From Flavobacterium sp. HJ-32-4 (GTDB lineage: Bacteria; Bacteroidota; Bacteroidia; Flavobacteriales; Flavobacteriaceae), in contig NZ_CP092832.1 in NCBI RefSeq assembly GCF_022532105.1, positions 2,447,001-2,511,000 on the forward strand: a stretch of DNA of 64,000 nucleotides, in the 5' to 3' direction. Below the pieces are notes generated by a model that ran no database searches, had not been told where the DNA came from, and saw nothing but the letters and a program-made list of their open reading frames with translations. Made by a program: the position numbers and the translations under genes. Below, piece by piece: positions 16,927 to 25,130 of the stretch (within the stretch, counting starts at the first letter, position 1; each line of letters starts with the position of its first letter).

Positions 16927-17260
16927 TTAGTAGTCGGTAGTCAGTAGTCAGTGGTGGGCCGCGTTCCCACCTGCTAGTCCTTAAACCCAGACGCTTCCTT
17001 CCCTTCCATTTGAAAGGAGGGAAGCGTCATTCCGGGCGTAGCAAAGAAATCCCGTTTAGCGAGCAGTTGGTAGTAGTCAGTAAGCAGTAGGCGGTAGTCA
17101 GTAGTCAGTCTCAGTTACTCAGTTACTCAGTTACTCAGTTCCTCAGTTCCTCAGTTGCTTCGGCACTAGTTACTCCGCCGTTCCATCCTCCCGACGAAGG
17201 AGGGATCCCATTCAGTCGGCGGTCGCTGTCTCAACTGCTCAGTTCACTCTTCCTGCCGAA
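16927..17260 (+). repeat. mixed short-repeat tract (GTAGTCAGT, CTCAGTTACTCAGTT, CCTCCCGACGAAGGAGGG)
   Basis: Non-coding. It holds runs of GTAGTCAGTAGTCAGT, a hairpin-like CTTCCCTTCC...GGAGGGAAGCG (about 17000-17030), about seven heptamers CTCAGTT(A/C/G) around 17107-17160, and a CCTCCCGACGAAGGAGGG dyad followed by ATCCCATTCAGT near 17189-17217. The same elements in the same order occur at 5.3-5.8 and 18.2-18.4 kb. Confidence 0.85.
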
Positions 17261-17308
17261 ATTGGGATCAGTATCTCAAAACGCACATTTCACCTGCCAA
17301 AGCGTGTC

Positions 17309-17603
17309 GCAACACCTGGAGAAACGTAGTCCAACACGTAGAGGGACATGGTCAGACACGTTTGGAGGCGTATCCAGACACGTTGTGGTACGTGGTTAGA
17401 CACGTATAGAGACGTATCCTGATACGTAGTGAGACGTGGTCAGATACGTAGTGAGACGTGGTCAGATACGTAGTGGGACGTAGTCAGATACGTAGTAGGA
17501 CGTAGTCAGACACGTGGCGAGACGTGGTCAGACACGGTATAGGACGTGCTCAAACACGTAGGAAGACGTGGTGAAACACGGTAGAGAGCGTGGTCAGACA
17601 CGT
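17309..17603 (+). repeat. 22-bp tandem array in perfect register, 13 units plus a partial
   Basis: From 17309 to 17594 the sequence divides into 13 contiguous 22-bp units with no insertion or deletion, followed by CAGACACGT (17595-17603). The unit consensus is CAGACACGTAG joined to TGAGACGTGGT. Units differ by several substitutions, the middle ones (units 6-9) being most alike. Each consensus unit holds ACGT at positions 6-9 and 16-19, so ACGT recurs about every 11 bp; about 20 ACGT occur in 295 bp. The period is not a multiple of three and no frame stays open, so it is not coding. There are no spacers, so it is not a CRISPR array. Confidence 0.93.
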
Positions 17604-17690
17604 TAAAGTAGGCAGTGAGCAGTTGACAGTGAGCAGTAGGCAGTAAGCAGTAGTCCGTAGTCGGTAGTCAGTCTCAGTTACTCAGTTGCT
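17604..17690 (+). repeat. GGCAGT / GTAGTCAGT / CTCAGTTACT short repeats
   Basis: Directly follows the 22-bp array: AGGCAGTGAGCAGTTGACAGT type units, then GTAGTCGGTAGTCAGT, then CTCAGTTACTCAGTTGCTC. Downstream, 17706-17727 has CATTCGCTAATTCGCT, a unit also found at 32.3 and 32.6 kb. The rest up to 17777 is the leader of the next gene. Confidence 0.8.
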
Positions 17691-17777
17691 CCGCTGCCCA
17701 ATTCATCCATTCGCTAATTCGCTGTTCCCCAATTTCTTCCTACCTTCACATCATCTGAAAAATGGCGTAAACAACCC

Positions 17778-18194
17778 ATGCGACTCTTGTTTCTCTTATT
17801 GTGTACGACCCGTTTACTGTCACAGGATGTAGCCGGACAGTGGAAGGTCGTGTCCTACGAAGATGAGACTGCCTTTTTCGATATCGAAAATAGACAGGTA
17901 CAGTTTACCGATCCCGCCGGTGGTGACCCTATTGCATTTCAGAACAGGGTATTACGATGGGTTCCCCTTTCCTATAGCTTCGACCGTGAGGGCCGCGTCT
18001 TCATCGACTTTCCTGATGATCTTGAGGATGGTTCGGGTATCTATCGTGTCGAAAGGGGGGATATCCTGTTTTCGATCGGACCCTATTCCGACAAAGAAAC
18101 TGCCTCTTTCGCAATAGAAAATAACGTTATAGTTCTCAACCACAAAACACGAAACGGCTTCATCAAGTTTCGGCTGAAGCGTATGTCTCAGTAG
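17778..18194 (+). CDS. small exported lipocalin-like protein, unknown function
   Basis: 138 residues. Short signal peptide ([13 protein letters not shown]) followed by [14 protein letters not shown], the opening strand of lipocalin-like or META-type small beta-barrels, and a C-terminal strand [10 protein letters not shown]. The ATG lies in a repeat-rich 1.5-kb stretch and the gene is a single unit between two repeat tracts. Function not recognisable. The coherent signal peptide and folded-domain look favour a real gene. Confidence 0.6.
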
Positions 18195-18420
18195 GCAGTG
18201 GGCAGTGGGCAGTGGGCAGTGGGCAGTGGGCAGTGGGCAGTTGGCAGTTGGCAGTAAGCAGTAGTCGGTAGTCAGTAGTCAGTCTCAGTTACTCAGTTGC
18301 TCAGTTGCTCAGTTCCTCAGTTACTCCGCCCCATCTTGTCCTCCCGACGTAGGAGGGATCCCATCCAGTAGACAGTCTAAGGGACTCAGGGGCTCAGGGA
18401 CTTAGTTCCTCCAGACACTC
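18190..18420 (+). repeat. GGCAGTG heptamer run plus CTCAGTT and CCTCCCGACG elements; left flank of the cassette island
   Basis: About seven tandem GGCAGTG heptamers (18195-18240), then GTAGTCAGTAGTCAGT, then CTCAGTTACTCAGTTGCTCAGTT, then the CCTCCCGACGTAGGAGGG dyad with ATCCCATCCAGT. It repeats the order seen at 5.3-5.8 and 16.9-17.2 kb and lies directly beside the AT-rich accessory island. Confidence 0.9.
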
Positions 18421-19373: not shown

Positions 19374-19631
19374 CTACTTTAAACCCCAAATTTGATCTTC
19401 ATCATCACCAACATACTTTCCGACAGTGCAACTAGCAGCTTTGACATACCCATCGTTATTGTTATTGAAAATGTATGTATCGCCTATTTTTTGAATCTCG
19501 ATAGCACTAAATCTGTGCGGGATGGAGATAAAATCAACTGCAGTGAAAATTACATCAATAGTTGAATTGGGTTCCTCATATTTGACCTCATAGTCAACAT
19601 CAAAATATTGCTTTTCACTTCTGAGTTTCAA
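19374..19631 (-). CDS. small hypothetical protein, possibly frameshifted
   Basis: 85 codons from a TTG. No ATG is available in this frame after the preceding stop. In another frame, an ATG at 19656 reads MGIKPSKKFETQK and stops at 19615, overlapping the TTG start. A single-base shift would join this to SEKQYFDVDYEVKYEEPN and give a protein of about 93 residues. So the gene may be broken, or the TTG start may be real. No family recognised. Acidic and strand-rich. Confidence 0.4.
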   Translation of the reverse strand: MKLRSEKQYFDVDYEVKYEEPNSTIDVIFTAVDFISIPHRFSAIEIQKIGDTYIFNNNNDGYVKAASCTVGKYVGDDEDQIWGLK

Positions 19632-19687
19632 ACTTCTTGGATGGTTTTATACCCATTTGTGTTGGGTTGTTGTGGCGAATGACCCTT

Positions 19688-19811
19688 AACGGTTGGAGGC
19701 CTTTTGTCCGGACAGGTTTTACAGCTCAAAGCTTCCATTTATTAATTACGTTCATTATTACGTACTAAGCTCCAATTTTGCACGTCTGCCAGCCTGACGC
19801 AAACCCGCGTT
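19688..19811. repeat. possible degenerate attC-like element
   Basis: AAC (19688-19690) and GTT (19809-19811) are 124 bp apart, matching the spacing of the clearer elements, and the position just past the SDR stop codon fits. Sequence similarity to the others and the dyad are weak. Confidence 0.25.
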
Positions 19812-19844
19812 ACCTGCCGTTTTTTGTCGGTCAGTTTATTTTGT

Positions 19845-20687
19845 TCAATTGTTTGTAGGTTGTAATGCTCCATAAAAATAGGAAGCAGTCGCACCCCCGT
19901 CTATTAAAAAATCTGAACCTGTTATAAATGCTCCTTTTTCAGACAATAACAGTTCCGCTACATTCGCTACTTCATCCGCCATTCCGGGTCTTCCTGCCGG
20001 ACATTTTTCAAACATGTTCTTGTAGAAATCGCCTCTTGGACCGTTGATTTCATCTAATGCCAAGGGTGTGATGATTATGCCCGGTGAAATGGAGTTTACT
20101 CTTGCTCCTTTTTCGCCCCACTTCACCGCTTCTGCCATTACCCGTTTTACGTTGCAACGTTTAGCCATTTGGTAGGCGTGGAGTGTATCTTTGATGTTTT
20201 CTGGTTGTAATAGGTCTAACTGCAATAATTCTTCGGTTGGCGTAGTGGCTAATTGTCGGTCTTCGTCCGCCGTCAATGCAGGCATCCTGTGTCCGGATTG
20301 ACTGGAAATGGTTACGGCGGTTCCACCTTGTTTCATTACTTTTCCAAACTCTTCTAACAATACTGCCGTGCCGTAAAGGTCCACCGCCAAAATATGTTCT
20401 TTTGTAGATTGACTGGGCGACAAACCTGCAGCATTGATAAACATTGAAATTTCGCCTTCCTTTTGTGCTGCTTCAATTAGTTCCAGGATAGAAGTTCTTG
20501 ATGAGATATCTGTTTTAAAGGGAACTGCGTCAAAACCTGCTTCCGTCAAGGTCTTGCAAATGGTTTGTGCATTCTCAAATTTCCAGTCGGCCACAAAAAT
20601 CTTGTTCCCGTAAGCCATTCTTCTGACAATGGCCATTCCTAGTTGTCCCGCTCCTGTTAATACGATTATGTTTTTTGTTGTTGTCAT
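19845..20687 (-). CDS. SDR family oxidoreductase
   Basis: 280 residues. Nucleotide-binding motif TGAGQLGMA near the N-terminus, the NAAG motif (FINAAGLS), the active-site Ser in ISSQSGHR, the YxxxK pair in YQMAKRC and the PG motif in NSISPGIIITPL. The C-terminus has ITGSDFLIDGGA. A classical short-chain dehydrogenase/reductase using NAD(P). The substrate cannot be read. Within the accessory island it is the only recognisable metabolic enzyme, and an attC-like element lies 57 bp upstream of its start. Confidence 0.88.
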   Translation of the reverse strand: MTTTKNIIVLTGAGQLGMAIVRRMAYGNKIFVADWKFENAQTICKTLTEAGFDAVPFKTDISSRTSILELIEAAQKEGEISMFINAAGLSPSQSTKEHILAVDLYGTAVLLEEFGKVMKQGGTAVTISSQSGHRMPALTADEDRQLATTPTEELLQLDLLQPENIKDTLHAYQMAKRCNVKRVMAEAVKWGEKGARVNSISPGIIITPLALDEINGPRGDFYKNMFEKCPAGRPGMADEVANVAELLLSEKGAFITGSDFLIDGGATASYFYGALQPTNN

Positions 20688-20743
20688 TGTACATCTTCTG
20701 TTTTCAAAATTTTGTCGCCTTTCAAGTTGTTGCGAGTCTTCCT

Positions 20744-20881
20744 AACAGGGCTGGTACCGTTTTGCGGCTCACACGTAGTGGATCAGGATTATGAAACTGC
20801 GTATTCTCTGCTACGACTAAAGTAATGAAAAACGTAAACTCGAATTTTCCACTAAACCAGGCGATTACGGTAGCTGCTGTT
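20744..20881. repeat. attC-like palindromic element 1
   Basis: AAC (20744-20746) to GTT (20879-20881), 138 bp. The left arm TAACAGGGCTGGTACCGT matches the reverse complement of the right end, TAACAGCAGCTACCGT, apart from a few bulged bases, and a second pair, TAGTGGA, lies further in. It contains the block GTTTTGCGGCTCACACG shared with the other elements. The TAA stop of the neighbouring gene at 20880 lies inside the right GTTA end. Confidence 0.65.
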
Positions 20882-21344
20882 ATATGACGTTTTTATTTTG
20901 GCTTTCTATTTTTCCAGACCTCAATTCCTGTATAGTAAAATCAAAAGGATTATAGTGATCAATAACCCATTCGCAATTTCTATGAATAAAGGAGATATAG
21001 GGCGCCATTTCTTGATTCTGTGTAATAAAAAGTGTATCTCCTTCAATGGGATGGTATTCGAAATCAAAACAGTCGACGTTGTTTAGATTAAGTGCAATCC
21101 ACTCAGCATCCAAGCCATTTCCAATATCTTCAGTAGGCATCATATAGATACCCATTTCGACACCTGCTGTTGTACCGGTAATCCGGAAAAGTTTCCAAAT
21201 GTAAATCAGCGGAATTTTGTTGTTTCGTTCGTCTTCTATTTTTACAAGATCGTTGCCAACCCGACGATAAAACTCTTGCTTACGCATCTTAATCAGATCG
21301 TTATTGCAGGAACAAAGTATAAAGCCTTTAGTATAGTCACACAT
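20880..21344 (-). CDS. hypothetical cassette protein
   Basis: 154 residues, no signal peptide, no family recognised. It begins MCDYTKGFILCSCNND with three closely spaced Cys residues and has a conserved-looking core LIYIWKLFRITG. The overall look is that of a small cytoplasmic protein. It is flanked by attC-like elements on both sides, its stop codon being part of the downstream one and its ATG 17 bp from the upstream one. An immunity or defence role is a guess from context only. Confidence 0.7.
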   Translation of the reverse strand: MCDYTKGFILCSCNNDLIKMRKQEFYRRVGNDLVKIEDERNNKIPLIYIWKLFRITGTTAGVEMGIYMMPTEDIGNGLDAEWIALNLNNVDCFDFEYHPIEGDTLFITQNQEMAPYISFIHRNCEWVIDHYNPFDFTIQELRSGKIESQNKNVI

Positions 21345-21360
21345 GCGTTGTCATTTGGAT

Positions 21361-21486
21361 AACGTTTCGCGGCCTATTCGTCAGGTGACGGCAACTGAAA
21401 CCGGGTATTCTCCGCTACCGGCAACGAAGTTATGAAAAACAAAAATATCTCGATTCACCCAGCCTTCCAATTATGGTAGCGGTGTT
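21361..21486. repeat. attC-like palindromic element 2
   Basis: AAC (21361-21363) to GTT (21484-21486), 126 bp. It starts AACGTTTCGCGGCC, has GAAACCGGGTATTCTCCGCTA in the middle (21 bases, 21410s) and ends TATGGTAGCGGTGTTAGC. The ends pair imperfectly (TAAC, CGC, CCTAT against TAAC, CGC, CCATA). Confidence 0.65.
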
Positions 21487-21495
21487 AGCTGAAGT

Positions 21496-21858
21496 TCATT
21501 GATACGTCGAATGTTCCGTTTTTATTACTTCTTGCGTGACAACTTCAGTAACCGAGTACCCACCTTCAACATACGTCTCTTTCCGAGTAACTCGAAGTCC
21601 GTTTTCAAACACTGCAGTAATCGAATACGATCCTTCGCCAGGATTTCTAATCAGCAATGATTTTTGTGATGCGTTTTCGATACCGGTAAGTAATTCGTCT
21701 GAATACTGGTTCCTGACAATTAATTTCTCAATCTTGTAGCCACTCTGATTACTAATTGTAACGCAAACATACTCTCTACTAAACGACCCACACTTCTTTG
21801 AGCATGATAGAAGGAAGAAGTTAATTATAATCGCGATTACAATGGATATGGCTTTCAT
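21496..21858 (-). CDS. small lipoprotein, hypothetical cassette gene
   Basis: 120 residues. N-terminal hydrophobic stretch followed by LLSCSKKC, a good lipobox. The mature part is a single beta-rich domain (VCVTISNQSGYKIEKLIVRNQ) like small periplasmic Ig-type folds. No family recognised. The stop is 9 bp from the GTT end of element 2 and the start 33 bp from element 3. Confidence 0.7.
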   Translation of the reverse strand: MKAISIVIAIIINFFLLSCSKKCGSFSREYVCVTISNQSGYKIEKLIVRNQYSDELLTGIENASQKSLLIRNPGEGSYSITAVFENGLRVTRKETYVEGGYSVTEVVTQEVIKTEHSTYQ

Positions 21859-21890
21859 TTTTTGCGATCAGCTTTTGATTGAATTTCAGC

Positions 21891-22016
21891 TAAGGTTTTG
21901 CCGCTCACGCGCAGTGCGCCAGGTTTTGGAAACGAGTAATATGCCAGGAGGGAAGGTGGTAAAAGAGACGAAACGTTAAACTTAACGAGACAGACGCTTT
22001 GCGGGCAGCCGCTGTT
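21891..22016. repeat. attC-like palindromic element 3
   Basis: TAAG (21891-21894, AAG in place of AAC) to GTT (22014-22016). It starts AAGGTTTTGCCGCTCACGCGC, related to the left arm of the other elements, and ends GGGCAGCCGCTGTTGTAT. GCCGCT on the left pairs with AGCGGC read from the right end. Confidence 0.55.
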
Positions 22017-22026
22017 GTATGCGGGA

Positions 22027-23109
22027 TTAATTGCCTAAAATTTCTTTTCTAGATTTAAAGGTAATTGCTGGGATTTTCTCTAGTTTGTAAACATATTCAC
22101 AGTAGAAATCAGTATGGCTAGAATTTAGCATATCATCGATACTCAAATTTTTCACTAATTCGTAGTATTGAACTAAATTTTCCATTTTTGGAAAAAATAA
22201 TGCATTGTAAAATAATAAGAACAATTCTGAGCCGCTCATTTGTGCTTGAATGAAATCAGAATAGCGGCGGTATTTCTTCTTCACTTGTTCGTAGCCAATA
22301 TCGTTATTATTAATTCGGATTGAAATTTGGCTACCTGTAAAATAATCATGACTTAGCATTCCTAATTCTCTGTCTTCATTTTCTTTTACATAACGTAATA
22401 TATGATAGAGATTTCTAAAATAATGGCTAAGTTGGTTATGATACTCTTTAAACGTTTTGCTATACGCAATTTTCGTTATTCCAAATTCATCTTCTAAGTC
22501 CTCAAAGTCTTCGAAATCAAAATAAGATTGTAATTGGCTTTTATAAGTCTCAAAATCAGGCGAATCTTTCTTTGAATTATAGACTTCAATATTTTGCTTG
22601 AAATGATTGTAATTCTCAAATAATTTAGACTTGATAAAATCGAATACTTGATTTGATCGGTATAGATTTTCACCCATTCCTTCGCGTAAAGAGATTAGCT
22701 TCCTTTCAGTCAGTTCTACGCTCAACTTTATGTCGTTTTGAGTTTTAAGCAAGTTGAAAAATGTGTTTTCAAATTGTTGAATTGAAAAAACTTCACGAGT
22801 ATTTTTCAATTCCTGAATTTGTAGACCAAGTTCCTTACTTTGAAGTCGTAAAGCCAAGAAAAATAATATTACTCCGGCAAATGACCAAATAGTTCCGACT
22901 ACCCCACCAAAGAAATCACTGACCATACTTGTTTCAGCTGTTTCAATTTTTTCTCCAGGTGAAATTGTCCGTAACGAATCGGAAATGGTTATTAAGAATT
23001 TGTATGTAATAAAAATACCTAAAGTAATACTCGAAACCGCAGCCAGAAGCAGTACAGACCCTAAAAATCCGTATTTCCGGTAATAGGAAAGAAAATAGTA
23101 TTTTATCAT
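22027..23109 (-). CDS. AbiC-like phage abortive infection protein
   Basis: 360 residues. Two N-terminal membrane segments (about 14-36 and 65-88) followed by a coiled coil (about 92-115) and a helical soluble domain with FENTFFNLLKTQNDI, YFRNLYHILRYV and FYNALFF, the layout of the putative AbiC family (membrane-anchored abortive-infection proteins). AbiC-type proteins stop phage multiplication in lactococci, where the mechanism is poorly known. It is the longest gene of the island and strongly AT-rich. Elements 3 and 4 flank it. Upstream 23110-23263 shows no gene. Confidence 0.72.
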   Translation of the reverse strand: MIKYYFLSYYRKYGFLGSVLLLAAVSSITLGIFITYKFLITISDSLRTISPGEKIETAETSMVSDFFGGVVGTIWSFAGVILFFLALRLQSKELGLQIQELKNTREVFSIQQFENTFFNLLKTQNDIKLSVELTERKLISLREGMGENLYRSNQVFDFIKSKLFENYNHFKQNIEVYNSKKDSPDFETYKSQLQSYFDFEDFEDLEDEFGITKIAYSKTFKEYHNQLSHYFRNLYHILRYVKENEDRELGMLSHDYFTGSQISIRINNNDIGYEQVKKKYRRYSDFIQAQMSGSELFLLFYNALFFPKMENLVQYYELVKNLSIDDMLNSSHTDFYCEYVYKLEKIPAITFKSRKEILGN

Positions 23110-23263
23110 GTATCGTTGTCAAAAGCTTGCACGTAACGTTCCGTCGATATCCGACTGTGGCAGGCAAAGCGAATACAATTATTTTCTTACTAAGATAGAT
23201 GTTTTTCGTGTAGACCAAAACGCCAACTTCCATTTGCGCCTACTTTCTCGAAAAATTGGCTCT

Positions 23264-23390
23264 AACTTTTCGCGGCTGACTCGCAGTTCATAAGGTTCTG
23301 AAACCGGGTATTCACCGCTAGAAGTGAAGGTAACCAAAAAGACAAAACGTTCAACTTAACAAGGCTGGCGCTTTGGGTGTAGATGCTGTT
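23264..23390. repeat. attC-like palindromic element 4
   Basis: AAC (23264-23266) to GTT (23388-23390), 127 bp. It contains TTTTCGCGGCTGACTCGCAG, then GAAACCGGGTATTCACCGC, and ends GTAGATGCTGTTAGC. The middle half closely follows element 3 (CTTAAC...GACGCTTTGCGGG against CTTAAC...GGCGCTTTGGGTG), so elements look like mosaics. Confidence 0.65.
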
Positions 23391-23400
23391 AGCAGAAGTT

Positions 23401-24025
23401 TTAATTACGCGTTCGCCAATGTGGAACTGTATCGATTAATGTGCTTGTAGTATCAAGTTCAGTATAGTCATAAGTCATTGTATCAACCACTGTTTCATAA
23501 TTGCCGTAAGTGTTAAAGAGTATCTAACTTCTAACGGTTGGTCATTTTTAGGAAGCAAGGAAGGTGGCAATGGAAATCTTGGAAGCCTTCAATTCGCTTA
23601 CAAAAAATCAAACTACGATGATAAAGCGCAATCCTTCATTACTCTATTTTTAAATGCCAATGAAACGAAGCAAAGATTAAACATACAAGTTCACCAAGAA
23701 GCAAAATACTTGTTATACTTAAACCGGATAAAAGCGCTCGGGTGTAAATTAATAAAGACAAACTTCAGTACAGATAATATTGAAAAGATCTATCAAGGCC
23801 CAACGACAACGATAAAAGTTACAGTTCAAACTCACAAAGAAGAATATTCATACGCAATTAGAACTATTTACAATTTTATCTTAATGACCAATTTGGATTA
23901 TGCGCTTATTCTGCATTGGCGAAGCTCTTTTTTCGTAATGCTAAAACTTCGTCAAATGTTAGATTTTGAGAATTGCAAACTCCACAAAATAAGACTAATA
24001 ATATCGTTATAATCTTTCTACTCAT
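23401..24025. pseudogene. secreted-protein cassette gene broken by an internal inversion
   Basis: Three pieces. (1) Minus strand 24025-23906: MSRKIITILLVLFCGVCNSQ (signal peptide), NLTFDEVLALRKKSFANAE, then TAA. (2) Plus strand from about 23518 to about 23907, open frame: EYLTSNGWSFLGSKEGGNG, then SLQFAYKKSNYDDKAQSF and KALGCKLIKTNFSTDNIEKIYQG. (3) Minus strand about 23514-23401: NTYGNYETVVDTMTYDYTE to PHWRTRN and TAA. Flipping the middle piece joins FANAE to EYLTSNGW and gives one continuous secreted protein of about 200 residues. A clean flip leaves a one-base frame mismatch at one joint, so a small indel is also needed. No long inverted repeats flank the joints. Element 4 follows the final stop by 10 bp and element 5 precedes the start, so this was one cassette. 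Confidence 0.65.
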
Positions 24026-24049
24026 GTTGCTTGGTTAAAAACGTATACC

Positions 24050-24177
24050 AACGTTTCGCGGCTCAAACACGGTGTGTTGGTTTTTTGAACCGAGCATTCT
24101 CCGCTAGGGCCAAAGTAATTAAAAAAAAGTGAGATTGAACTTTCGACTAAACCAAGCAACTGCGTGGAGCAGCTGTT
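24050..24177. repeat. attC-like palindromic element 5
   Basis: AAC (24050-24052) to GTT (24175-24177), 128 bp. It starts CCAACGTTTCGCGGCTC, has GAACCGAGCATTCTCCGCTA in the middle and ends GAGCAGCTGTTAGCGG. Inner arms TGTTGGTTT and, from the other end, GCTTGGTTTAG also pair. The stop of the next cassette gene is 9 bp away. Confidence 0.65.
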
Positions 24178-24186
24178 AGCGGTCGG

Positions 24187-24759
24187 TTATTTTAGCAGGT
24201 TTTGGGTAACAATACCAGTCATGCTAATTAATTTTTTTGAAATCGTTTCGCTAACAACTCCGCTGGCTACCATGTCAACAGTTTTACCAGCTAAAAGTTG
24301 TTTCCAATTCTTTTTTCCTAAAAAATATAACTTTTTAAGTTCTTCAATTTCAGTATATAAATCTTCGTAAGTTAGTTCTTGACCTTTTTTCAGGTATTCT
24401 AGTTCTTTTAAAATTGCATCAAGCTTTTCAGATGAATCTTGTTTTTCGGATTCACTGAACTCCTCCGTATTTTTTTGGATACCATTTTCCTCTAATAAAT
24501 TATCCAGGAAATATAGAGTTTTGAGATGATTCTTTTCAGTATCACATATCGACTCAGATCGGCAAGACTCTTTGTGTGAGGCTAAATCTCGTTTAACGCC
24601 ATTTTTAACAATCGATAAAAAAGTCAATTTATCAGACTGATTTCTTAGGCTATAAAGTTCACTTTCGACGTCAGACACAAAACTTTTAGGATCATTTGCC
24701 ATATAATAAATTCTGTCGAAAAAATCCTCGGCCATTGAGTCTACAATATTCATATGCAA
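24187..24759 (-). CDS. hypothetical helical protein, cassette gene
   Basis: 190 residues, almost entirely helical by appearance. Residues about 20-100 contain an SDKLTFLSIVKNGVKRDL segment, about 108-150 is a charged coiled coil (SEKLDAILKELEYLKKGQEL, YTEIEELKKLYFLGKKNW), and the C-terminus is small-residue rich (KTVDMVASGVVSETISKKLI), possibly membrane-active. No family recognised. Start: MHMNIVDS has two candidate ATGs. It is the right-most gene of the array. Confidence 0.65.
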   Translation of the reverse strand: MHMNIVDSMAEDFFDRIYYMANDPKSFVSDVESELYSLRNQSDKLTFLSIVKNGVKRDLASHKESCRSESICDTEKNHLKTLYFLDNLLEENGIQKNTEEFSESEKQDSSEKLDAILKELEYLKKGQELTYEDLYTEIEELKKLYFLGKKNWKQLLAGKTVDMVASGVVSETISKKLISMTGIVTQNLLK

Positions 24760-25130
24760 TCATATTTGGATTTAACTTGCCACCAACTTGTTTATACCCC
24801 TGAATAATTATGCTATTACCCCCAATTCCGGTATGTAGGTAGAAACAAATCAGAGCAAAAGATAGCACATTTTTACAAATCATCAAACGGCCTCTTGCTA
24901 TTTGAATACTCTTTGCATGCATGCATGTTGATCTCCGTTGTCTTGTTGCTGTGCCCTAACAACCCAGTGGGCGTGAGCAGTAGGCAGTGGGCGATAGGCC
25001 GTCTAAGTCCCTCAATTACTGAGTTGCTCGGAGACTGACTCACTACACCCCTTCATTCCAAACGCACCTAAGAAAGCCTTGTTAAGGATTTAGTAATCCT
25101 TCCTCGTAGGTCTCTCGCTTCGCAACAGTT
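24760..25130. other. gene-free stretch; right flank of the cassette island
   Basis: The left part is AT-rich and shows no gene. GCATGCATGCATG lies at about 24915. At 24970-25035 comes a short tract of the GGCAGT and CTCAATTACTGAGTTGCTC repeat types, which mirrors the tract at 18.2-18.4 kb on the other side of the island. A stem AAGGATT (25084-25090) and AATCCTT (25095-25101) lies downstream of the next leftward gene but has no T run. Confidence 0.6.

Follow-up and report, generated by a model that had tools for sequence, protein, structure and literature searches.

Do the related elements that lie among the genes of one flavobacterial region belong to an integron, and if so, to which recombinase do they answer? 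The question is raised by positions 19,374 to 24,759 of a 64,000-nucleotide stretch of Flavobacterium sp. HJ-32-4 (contig NZ_CP092832.1, positions 2,447,001 to 2,511,000; the whole stretch is hereafter the window), where five such elements (E1 to E5) were noticed. A sequence-only reading had proposed a CALIN, i.e. a cluster of attC sites lacking an integrase. Comparison with related genomes leads us to conclude that the region is very probably a decayed cassette array belonging to an integron-like system found in Bacteroidota, the recombinase of which, in relatives, is devoid of the insert found in the integron integrase IntI.

Arrays and their recombinase in related genomes

We searched the genus with a sequence-only profile (R1) built from the five window elements, scoring at most 17 candidates per genome, and obtained matches in 81 of 199 genomes at E <= 1e-3. 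Being built from decayed copies and tuned to the window, R1 probably misses many elements. Some of these genomes carry long arrays on one strand. In the one labelled G088, all 254 R1 matches (two of them cut by the ends of sequence pieces) lie on the plus strand between positions 3,075,978 and 3,253,171, i.e. over 177 kb or 5.1% of the chromosome; for reference, the Vibrio cholerae superintegron holds about 180 cassettes. A tyrosine recombinase (347-580 amino acids) is encoded on the same strand at the upstream end of the array in all seven array genomes checked besides that of the window, and it precedes the first R1 match by 0.5-2.2 kb in six of the seven. In G163 the first match is about 10 kb beyond the recombinase, yet the cassette chain begins close to the gene. 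Eleven genomes of the genus have at least five R1 matches, and the recombinase is present in 10 of them, the exception being the window's own.

Cassette chains were also sought around recombinase genes, with a detector that is blind to strand. Chains of three or more were present in 9 of 80 loci of a first set (reversed controls: 2 of 160, at one locus) and in 12 of 30 loci of a second set (reversed controls: 1 of 60), in which 14 of the 20 newly added loci showed none; six IntI loci gave no chain of three. Fourteen of the 21 chain loci entered the count of position 8 given below, and the other seven include some doubtful-looking links.

The moving unit is a gene and its own element

Circularisation of a cassette through a join within GTT would bring its first bases together with those preceding its own AAC as one pair of arms, which are then separated in the array. 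The corresponding signature was scored by comparing four bases of the cassette start (those that follow GTT and one further base) with the reverse complement of the four bases before the element, leaving aside gaps above 1300 nt in G088 or 1500 nt in other genomes. A cassette matches its own element in 307 of 326 cases from six genomes (G088 174/192, G134 53/53, G148 25/25, G097 15/16, G163 37/37, and G178 3/3), as against 28 matches with the next element and 31 with a random one. As the cassette start mirrors its own element and not the next one, these counts show that the moving unit is the gene plus its element, joined inside GTT. Each cassette, spanning GTT to GTT, comprises one gene and one element of 60-160 nt.

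These units occur as full-length copies with different neighbours. In six arrays, 309 cassette pairs align over at least 85% of both members, 297 of them having different neighbours on both sides (the 15 pairs listed individually are all from G088). In six inspected pairs, the first and last 60 bases are identical, the own elements agree at 63-100% (ungapped), and identity falls to 20-38% just past the own element. In two pairs the members come from different genomes; one of these aligns at 80% from boundary to boundary over 760 bases, the other at 67%. The longest open reading frame (ORF) lies on the array strand in 46 of the 53 G134 cassettes and on the other strand in none (seven have no ORF of 60 amino acids), with a median stop-to-element distance of 10 nt; a Pfam scan of 10 of the 45 listed G134 cassette proteins left five without a match at E <= 0.001.

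One position of the arms departs from complementarity. Among 376 cassettes, retained from 387 for at least 5/6 matches, position 8 pairs in three and is mismatched in 373 (A opposite C in 357), and positions 9-12, which were not selected on, mostly pair. The 14 chain loci, picked by exact pairing of positions 1-6, behave similarly: position 8 pairs in 0 of 71, and positions 9, 10, and 11 in 64, 67, and 61, respectively. Twelve of these loci are from outside the genus, including Rufibacter, Seonamhaeicola, Algibacter, and Winogradskyella. Since the mismatch persists through many unrelated arm sequences, it suggests that the element is recognized in its folded form.

The element is a conserved imperfect hairpin

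The letters of the elements vary between genomes, and their pairing is retained. For 88 elements from 30 genomes, own arms bind at a mean of -18.6 kcal/mol, compared with -11.0 for arms from foreign genomes and -13.1 for other arms of the same genome, and for 59 of the 88 fewer than 5% of foreign 3' arms bind as well. Such arm swaps were used instead of RNAalifold because the right arm is, we think, shifted in a sequence-only alignment: RNAalifold predicted no pairs in 28 own-genome matches, and in the 88 elements seven pairs with RNA parameters and none with DNA parameters. Outside the window's genome, 79 of 82 elements are equalled by at most 1% of 100 shuffles, as against one of the five window elements. 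An early view, drawn from the poor folding in the window, held that the repeats were conserved in sequence and not in structure; it was overturned by the elements of relatives.

The inner stem was compared in the 78 elements that could be aligned by script (four of the 82 were dropped). In 55 of them, position 11 of the 3' arm is followed by a base left unpaired, and 75 carry an A/C mismatch at position 14; extra bases occur on the 3' arm in 66 and on the 5' arm in 28, those of the 5' arm mostly near the loop. Length from TAAC to GTT is 59-60 nt in Rufibacter and 159-160 nt in F. enshiense. The features by which attC hairpins are recognized (R''/R' and L''/L' pairing, an unpaired central spacer, extrahelical bases, a variable terminal part, and poor sequence conservation) were all found in genomes other than the window's.

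A recombinase without the IntI insert

The four array recombinases that we scanned combine PF00589 with a SAM-like core-binding domain, and match TIGR02249 (integron integrase) in two stretches, on either side of the insert, at 182-222 bits versus a cut-off of 265. The K-box is separated from the HxLRH motif by 64-66 amino acids in 12 of 16 array-type recombinases (a set that includes L131, a locus for which no array was found), the other four being without insert by eye; the distance is 106-107 amino acids in five of seven IntI, and the insert is visible in all seven. An array recombinase is about 30% identical to IntI1, and the best solved relatives of the G088 enzyme are the XerC-like 4a8e and XerA 5hxy. 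NCBI names some proteins of the family 'site-specific tyrosine recombinase/integron integrase'.

In a tree of 63 selected proteins, the seven IntI form one 100/100 clade with no array recombinase inside, and the proteins labelled XerC/XerD group apart from it, in a clade with full support. The array recombinases make up several lineages on an unresolved backbone, inside a group to which IntI also belongs; bootstrap values had not converged, and the tree leaves undecided whether IntI is derived from array recombinases. Taken by function, the system would be like an integron; by insert and by tree, its recombinase is not IntI. At E <= 1e-50, the family is present in 128 of 395 sampled Bacteroidota genomes, belonging to 83 of 170 genera, not all of which show arrays.

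A few members of the family are worth recording in their own right. An insert-less recombinase from an Undinarchaeales metagenome-assembled genome (L163) is sister to IntI in the tree (97/90). At L131, on a Chryseobacterium oryzae plasmid (NZ_CP094530.1), a recombinase 62.5% identical to that of G134 lies near an IS91-family transposase and a DNA methyltransferase; the cassette chain there was not above control and no attI was found. The recombinase of G097 (L109:313-2055) is long, at 580 amino acids, with an extended N-terminal part in which small repeated domains seem, by eye, to be present, and open frames of about 590-600 amino acids occur in other genomes. Lastly, G154, G060, and G189 each contain several relatives of 312-328 amino acids with lower, nearly equal scores, which are perhaps recombinases carried by insertion sequences.

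The array of the window

R1, here applied to its own seeds, places all five elements on the minus strand, at the places previously reported, each running from TAAC (or CAAC) to about CGTT; the left arm and middle that they share can be seen in the sequence, as can the GCTGTTAGC-type end (Table 1). Together they span 3.4 kb. The reported place of E1 is right, its start excepted: the position given, 20744, takes in an extra dyad, and the model starts at 20755. A gene stop close by, reported for every element, is present upstream on the same strand for E1, E2, E3, and E5 (-3 to 9 nt) and absent for E4, whose nearest upstream ORF is on the opposite strand, 318 nt away. The next start, said to follow within 17-155 bp, is found at 68 nt for E1, 16 nt for E2, 33 nt for E3, and 154 nt for E4; the next ORF after E5 is on the opposite strand. 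The low GC content of the stretch holds (37.5% versus 49.1% for the whole window). In a Pfam scan of nine window proteins, none of the five ORFs in 19374-24759 other than putAbiC and the dehydrogenase reaches a curated cut-off. PADLOC run on five window proteins returned two weak matches. An Rfam search gave no relevant match at E <= 10, and a plasmid search with the 190-amino-acid protein as query gave no match.

Table 1. Elements, cassettes, and ORFs of the array (positions within the window; aa, amino acids)
Feature	Position	Strand	Remarks
85-aa ORF	19374..19631	-	68% identical to two G134-array cassette proteins, 59% to one in G088; no element detected 3'
Short-chain dehydrogenase gene (280 aa), next after E1	19845..20687	-	Pfam match; no element detected 3' of gene
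Element E1	20755..20883	-	3' of 154-aa ORF, overlaps its stop codon; 11% of shuffles pair as well
Cassette gene, 154 aa	20880..21344	-	no Pfam match
Element E2	21360..21488	-	3' of small lipoprotein-like gene; R arm retained, inner arms in decay (equalled by 65% of shuffles)
Best preserved cassette (gene 21496-21858 and E2)	21360..21890	-	own-element signature
Cassette gene, 120 aa	21496..21858	-	lipoprotein-like N-terminus by eye
Element E3	21891..22018	-	3' of AbiC-like gene; weak pairing (equalled by 15% of shuffles)
Cassette gene, 360 aa, putative phage abortive infection protein (putAbiC, PF16872)	22027..23109	-	Pfam match
Element E4	23263..23392	-	arm pairing gone (92% of shuffles as good)
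Open frame inside E5-E4 cassette	23527..24012	+	related to a G088-array cassette (34% identity, E 1e-18)
Element E5	24049..24179	-	3' of 190-aa ORF; sole window element with clear arm pairing (1% of shuffles as good)
Cassette gene, 190 aa	24187..24759	-	no family above a cut-off

The signature is kept in one of the four testable window cassettes. In that cassette, the first 12 bases and the reverse complement of the bases before the TAAC of E2 agree at 11 of 12 positions, the sole difference being the position-8 mismatch; its start adjoins E3, whose end is CTT and not GTT. The cassette of E5, with its ends read by eye, gives no match. Two window ORFs (the 85-amino-acid ORF and the 23527-24012 frame) match cassettes of other arrays, and the latter frame is probably a truncated and inverted cassette gene. 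The chain detector scored 2 in the window and 3 in the reversed control, which is not above chance.

In the 3.53-Mb genome as a whole, the search for further copies that the sequence-only reading had called for was fruitful: R1 finds 27 copies in scattered clusters, namely the five window elements and 22 more, all at E <= 0.0045. Nineteen of the 27 begin -3 to 17 nt after a same-strand ORF stop, and five overlap an ORF of 80 amino acids or more. With these 22 further copies, and with 19 of 27 copies right after same-strand stops, the elements stand beyond chance. A BLAST search with E5 across 40 relatives matched only its own genome. No ortholog of the array recombinase was found in this genome; what matches best there, with 34 and 29% identity, is a pair of proteins that we take to be XerC and XerD. 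Of the four PF00589 matches in the genome, two were measured and both lack the IntI insert, the third (C1:2699362) is a short fragment, of another type by eye, and the fourth is C1:634372.

Further repeats were seen in the same genome. Near-identical element sets about 18 kb apart (L046, C1:2896000-2915000, and L047, C1:2915001-2934000) suggest a duplicated block. Short imperfect repeats (GGCAGT-, GTCAGTA-, and CTCAGTTA-type units) flank the array on both sides, at window positions 17080-18310 and 24973-25029; they include a 57-nt unit (reference 17080-17136) with copies at 18254-18310 (95%) and 24973-25029 (75%). At 17303-17610, a 22-bp unit is repeated in tandem and was detected in ten overlapping registers.

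Proposed mechanism and alternative explanations

We propose that, in intact relatives, the insert-less tyrosine recombinase would integrate cassettes, in circular form, at an attI-like site immediately 3' of the recombinase gene. It would recognize the element folded as a single strand (or as a cruciform) and cut inside GTT/AAC, the fixed mismatches and unpaired bases presumably telling it which strand and which arm to use. In the genome of the window, the recombinase would have been lost and the elements would have drifted, leaving 27 copies in scattered clusters; such a loss followed by drift fits the weak pairing, the single kept signature, and the shared cassette genes. The array is probably no longer rearranged, and its remaining genes, one of them AbiC-like, may still work. 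More broadly, and tentatively, cassettes of folded DNA may be captured without the I2 insert: insert-less recombinases found across the phylum could run Bacteroidota integrons with as many as hundreds of cassettes and recognize the hairpin by the fixed mismatches of its arms, and IntI could be one derived lineage of the same large clade.

Several observations weigh against a decayed integron-like array. The imperfect dyad ends described earlier are weak in the window: folded alone, whole elements show no advantage over shuffles (z -1.0 to +1.1 on either strand), and the end pairing singled out in E1 is equalled by 31 of 200 plus-strand shuffles and, in the arm test, by 5%. Three of the four testable window cassettes are without the signature, and the 23527-24012 frame is on the wrong strand for a cassette gene. 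In the genus, 55 of 199 genomes have a recombinase and no R1 match at E 1e-3, and 19 show the reverse. The candidate attI is another such point: the first cassette starts 63-123 bp past the recombinase stop in 18 of 27 loci, a count made without a control (by eye, GTT is directly preceded in 15 of these 18 by a TATAA/TATAT-type end, in many cases with an inverted repeat before it), and in the other nine the candidate is absent, implausible, or farther off. Finally, that the recombinase catalyses exchange at these sites is something we infer from its position and its co-occurrence with arrays.

The folding of the window elements, taken with the 27 scattered copies, would suit dispersed intergenic repeats of REP or MITE type that settle at gene ends and are no recombination sites. 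We give this explanation almost no credit, and it is contradicted for relatives by the own-element signature, the boundaries of repeated cassettes, and the one-strand arrays beside a recombinase. Gene-element order, GTT/AAC ends, hairpin sites, and single orientation would equally be expected of a canonical CALIN, in which attC cassettes of an ordinary IntI integron remain after intI has been lost or lies elsewhere. This is very unlikely: the recombinase encoded next to intact arrays has no IntI insert and is placed outside the IntI clade, the R arm of the sites is longer and mismatched, and among the PF00589 matches of the window's genome, with C1:634372 unclassified, those that could be assessed are two proteins without insert and one short fragment.

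It is unlikely that the same cassettes are exchanged at double-stranded sites, as in Xer systems, the palindrome merely setting the polarity of half-sites. In favour of duplex sites, the recombinase is similar to Xer/XerA and is without the insert to which single-strand use is attributed (PMC7790495), and the A on one arm and C on the other at position 8, in 357 of 376 cassettes, could mark a duplex; a duplex site would, however, conserve its letters, and here the arm letters are free and yet complementary within each cassette and genome. Unlikely, too, is an array in the window that is still alive and could be mobilized by a plasmid-borne recombinase. The related enzyme on the Chryseobacterium plasmid and the part of the structure retained by E5 and the E2 cassette would allow it, but E1 to E4 pair no better than shuffles in the arm test (Table 1) and the genome lacks the enzyme. 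A decayed array of an integron-like, insert-less system remains the preferred reading.

Comparison with known systems

A CALIN has been defined as at least two attC sites less than 4 kb apart without integrase (PMC9668308). The window has five elements, candidate attC sites, in 3.4 kb and no recombinase of the system in the genome. From the earlier proposal of a CALIN-type array, the gene-element-gene cassettes without integrase and the GTT crossover survive, and window ORFs are shared with other arrays; the link to an integron integrase does not survive, the recombinase not being IntI. As the sites differ from attC and the window copies are mostly decayed, the label describes the look of the region and not a proven mobilizable array: the array is CALIN-like in kind, and membership of an IntI integron is not shown.

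The I2 domain is described as necessary for cassette capture and present in no other protein, intermediates being lacking (PMC7790495), and one survey picked IntI by the I2 domain or an intI patch (PMC2426708). IntegronFinder 2.0 reported one complete integron within Bacteroidetes proper, in Salinibacter (PMC9024848), and Bacteroidetes are listed among integron carriers (PMC8618304, PMC9668308). We found no description of the present system among the top results of the literature searches, whose scope left out preprints and most subscription papers. If the broader, tentative reading given above is true, the integron would be older and wider than insert-based surveys can see, and insert-less systems would be the intermediates said to be lacking. 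The system would allow the origin of integrons to be tested on living intermediates, and would give access to many cassette genes so far hidden.

The system resembles integrons, including sedentary chromosomal (super)integrons and CALINs, in its cassettes of a gene plus a hairpin site, set in one orientation with a GTT/AAC crossover (as supported by the signature and by the boundaries of repeated cassettes), in a candidate attI-like site near the recombinase gene, in sites that are similar within a genome, in many genes of unknown function and, in one case, in hundreds of cassettes, as in superintegrons. Unlike in integrons, the recombinase is without the IntI-specific insert and has an extra N-terminal part, and its gene runs in the direction of the array, whereas most integrons have the integrase gene pointing the other way.

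The sites differ from attC as well. The attC R-box has the 7-nt consensus RYYYAAC/GTTRRRY, to which a loose match was noted at the outset; no 7-nt R-box of that kind is found, and the R arm instead pairs over about 12 nt, is specific to the cassette, and carries the fixed mismatch at position 8. The central spacer is 1 nt versus 5 nt in most attC, and the commonest unpaired base of the L stem is on the L' arm (3'), unlike the extrahelical bases of attC, which are on the R''-L'' arm (PMC2727003). With XerA, XerC, and XerD, the recombinase shares its catalytic family and the absence of an insert; Xer recombinases act on a dif site, whereas here an array of cassettes follows the recombinase gene. 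With TIGR02249, IntI4 (2a3v), and IntI1 it shares matches on both sides of the insert, and it differs from them by a score below the TIGR02249 cut-off and by its shorter spacing between the K-box and HxLRH.

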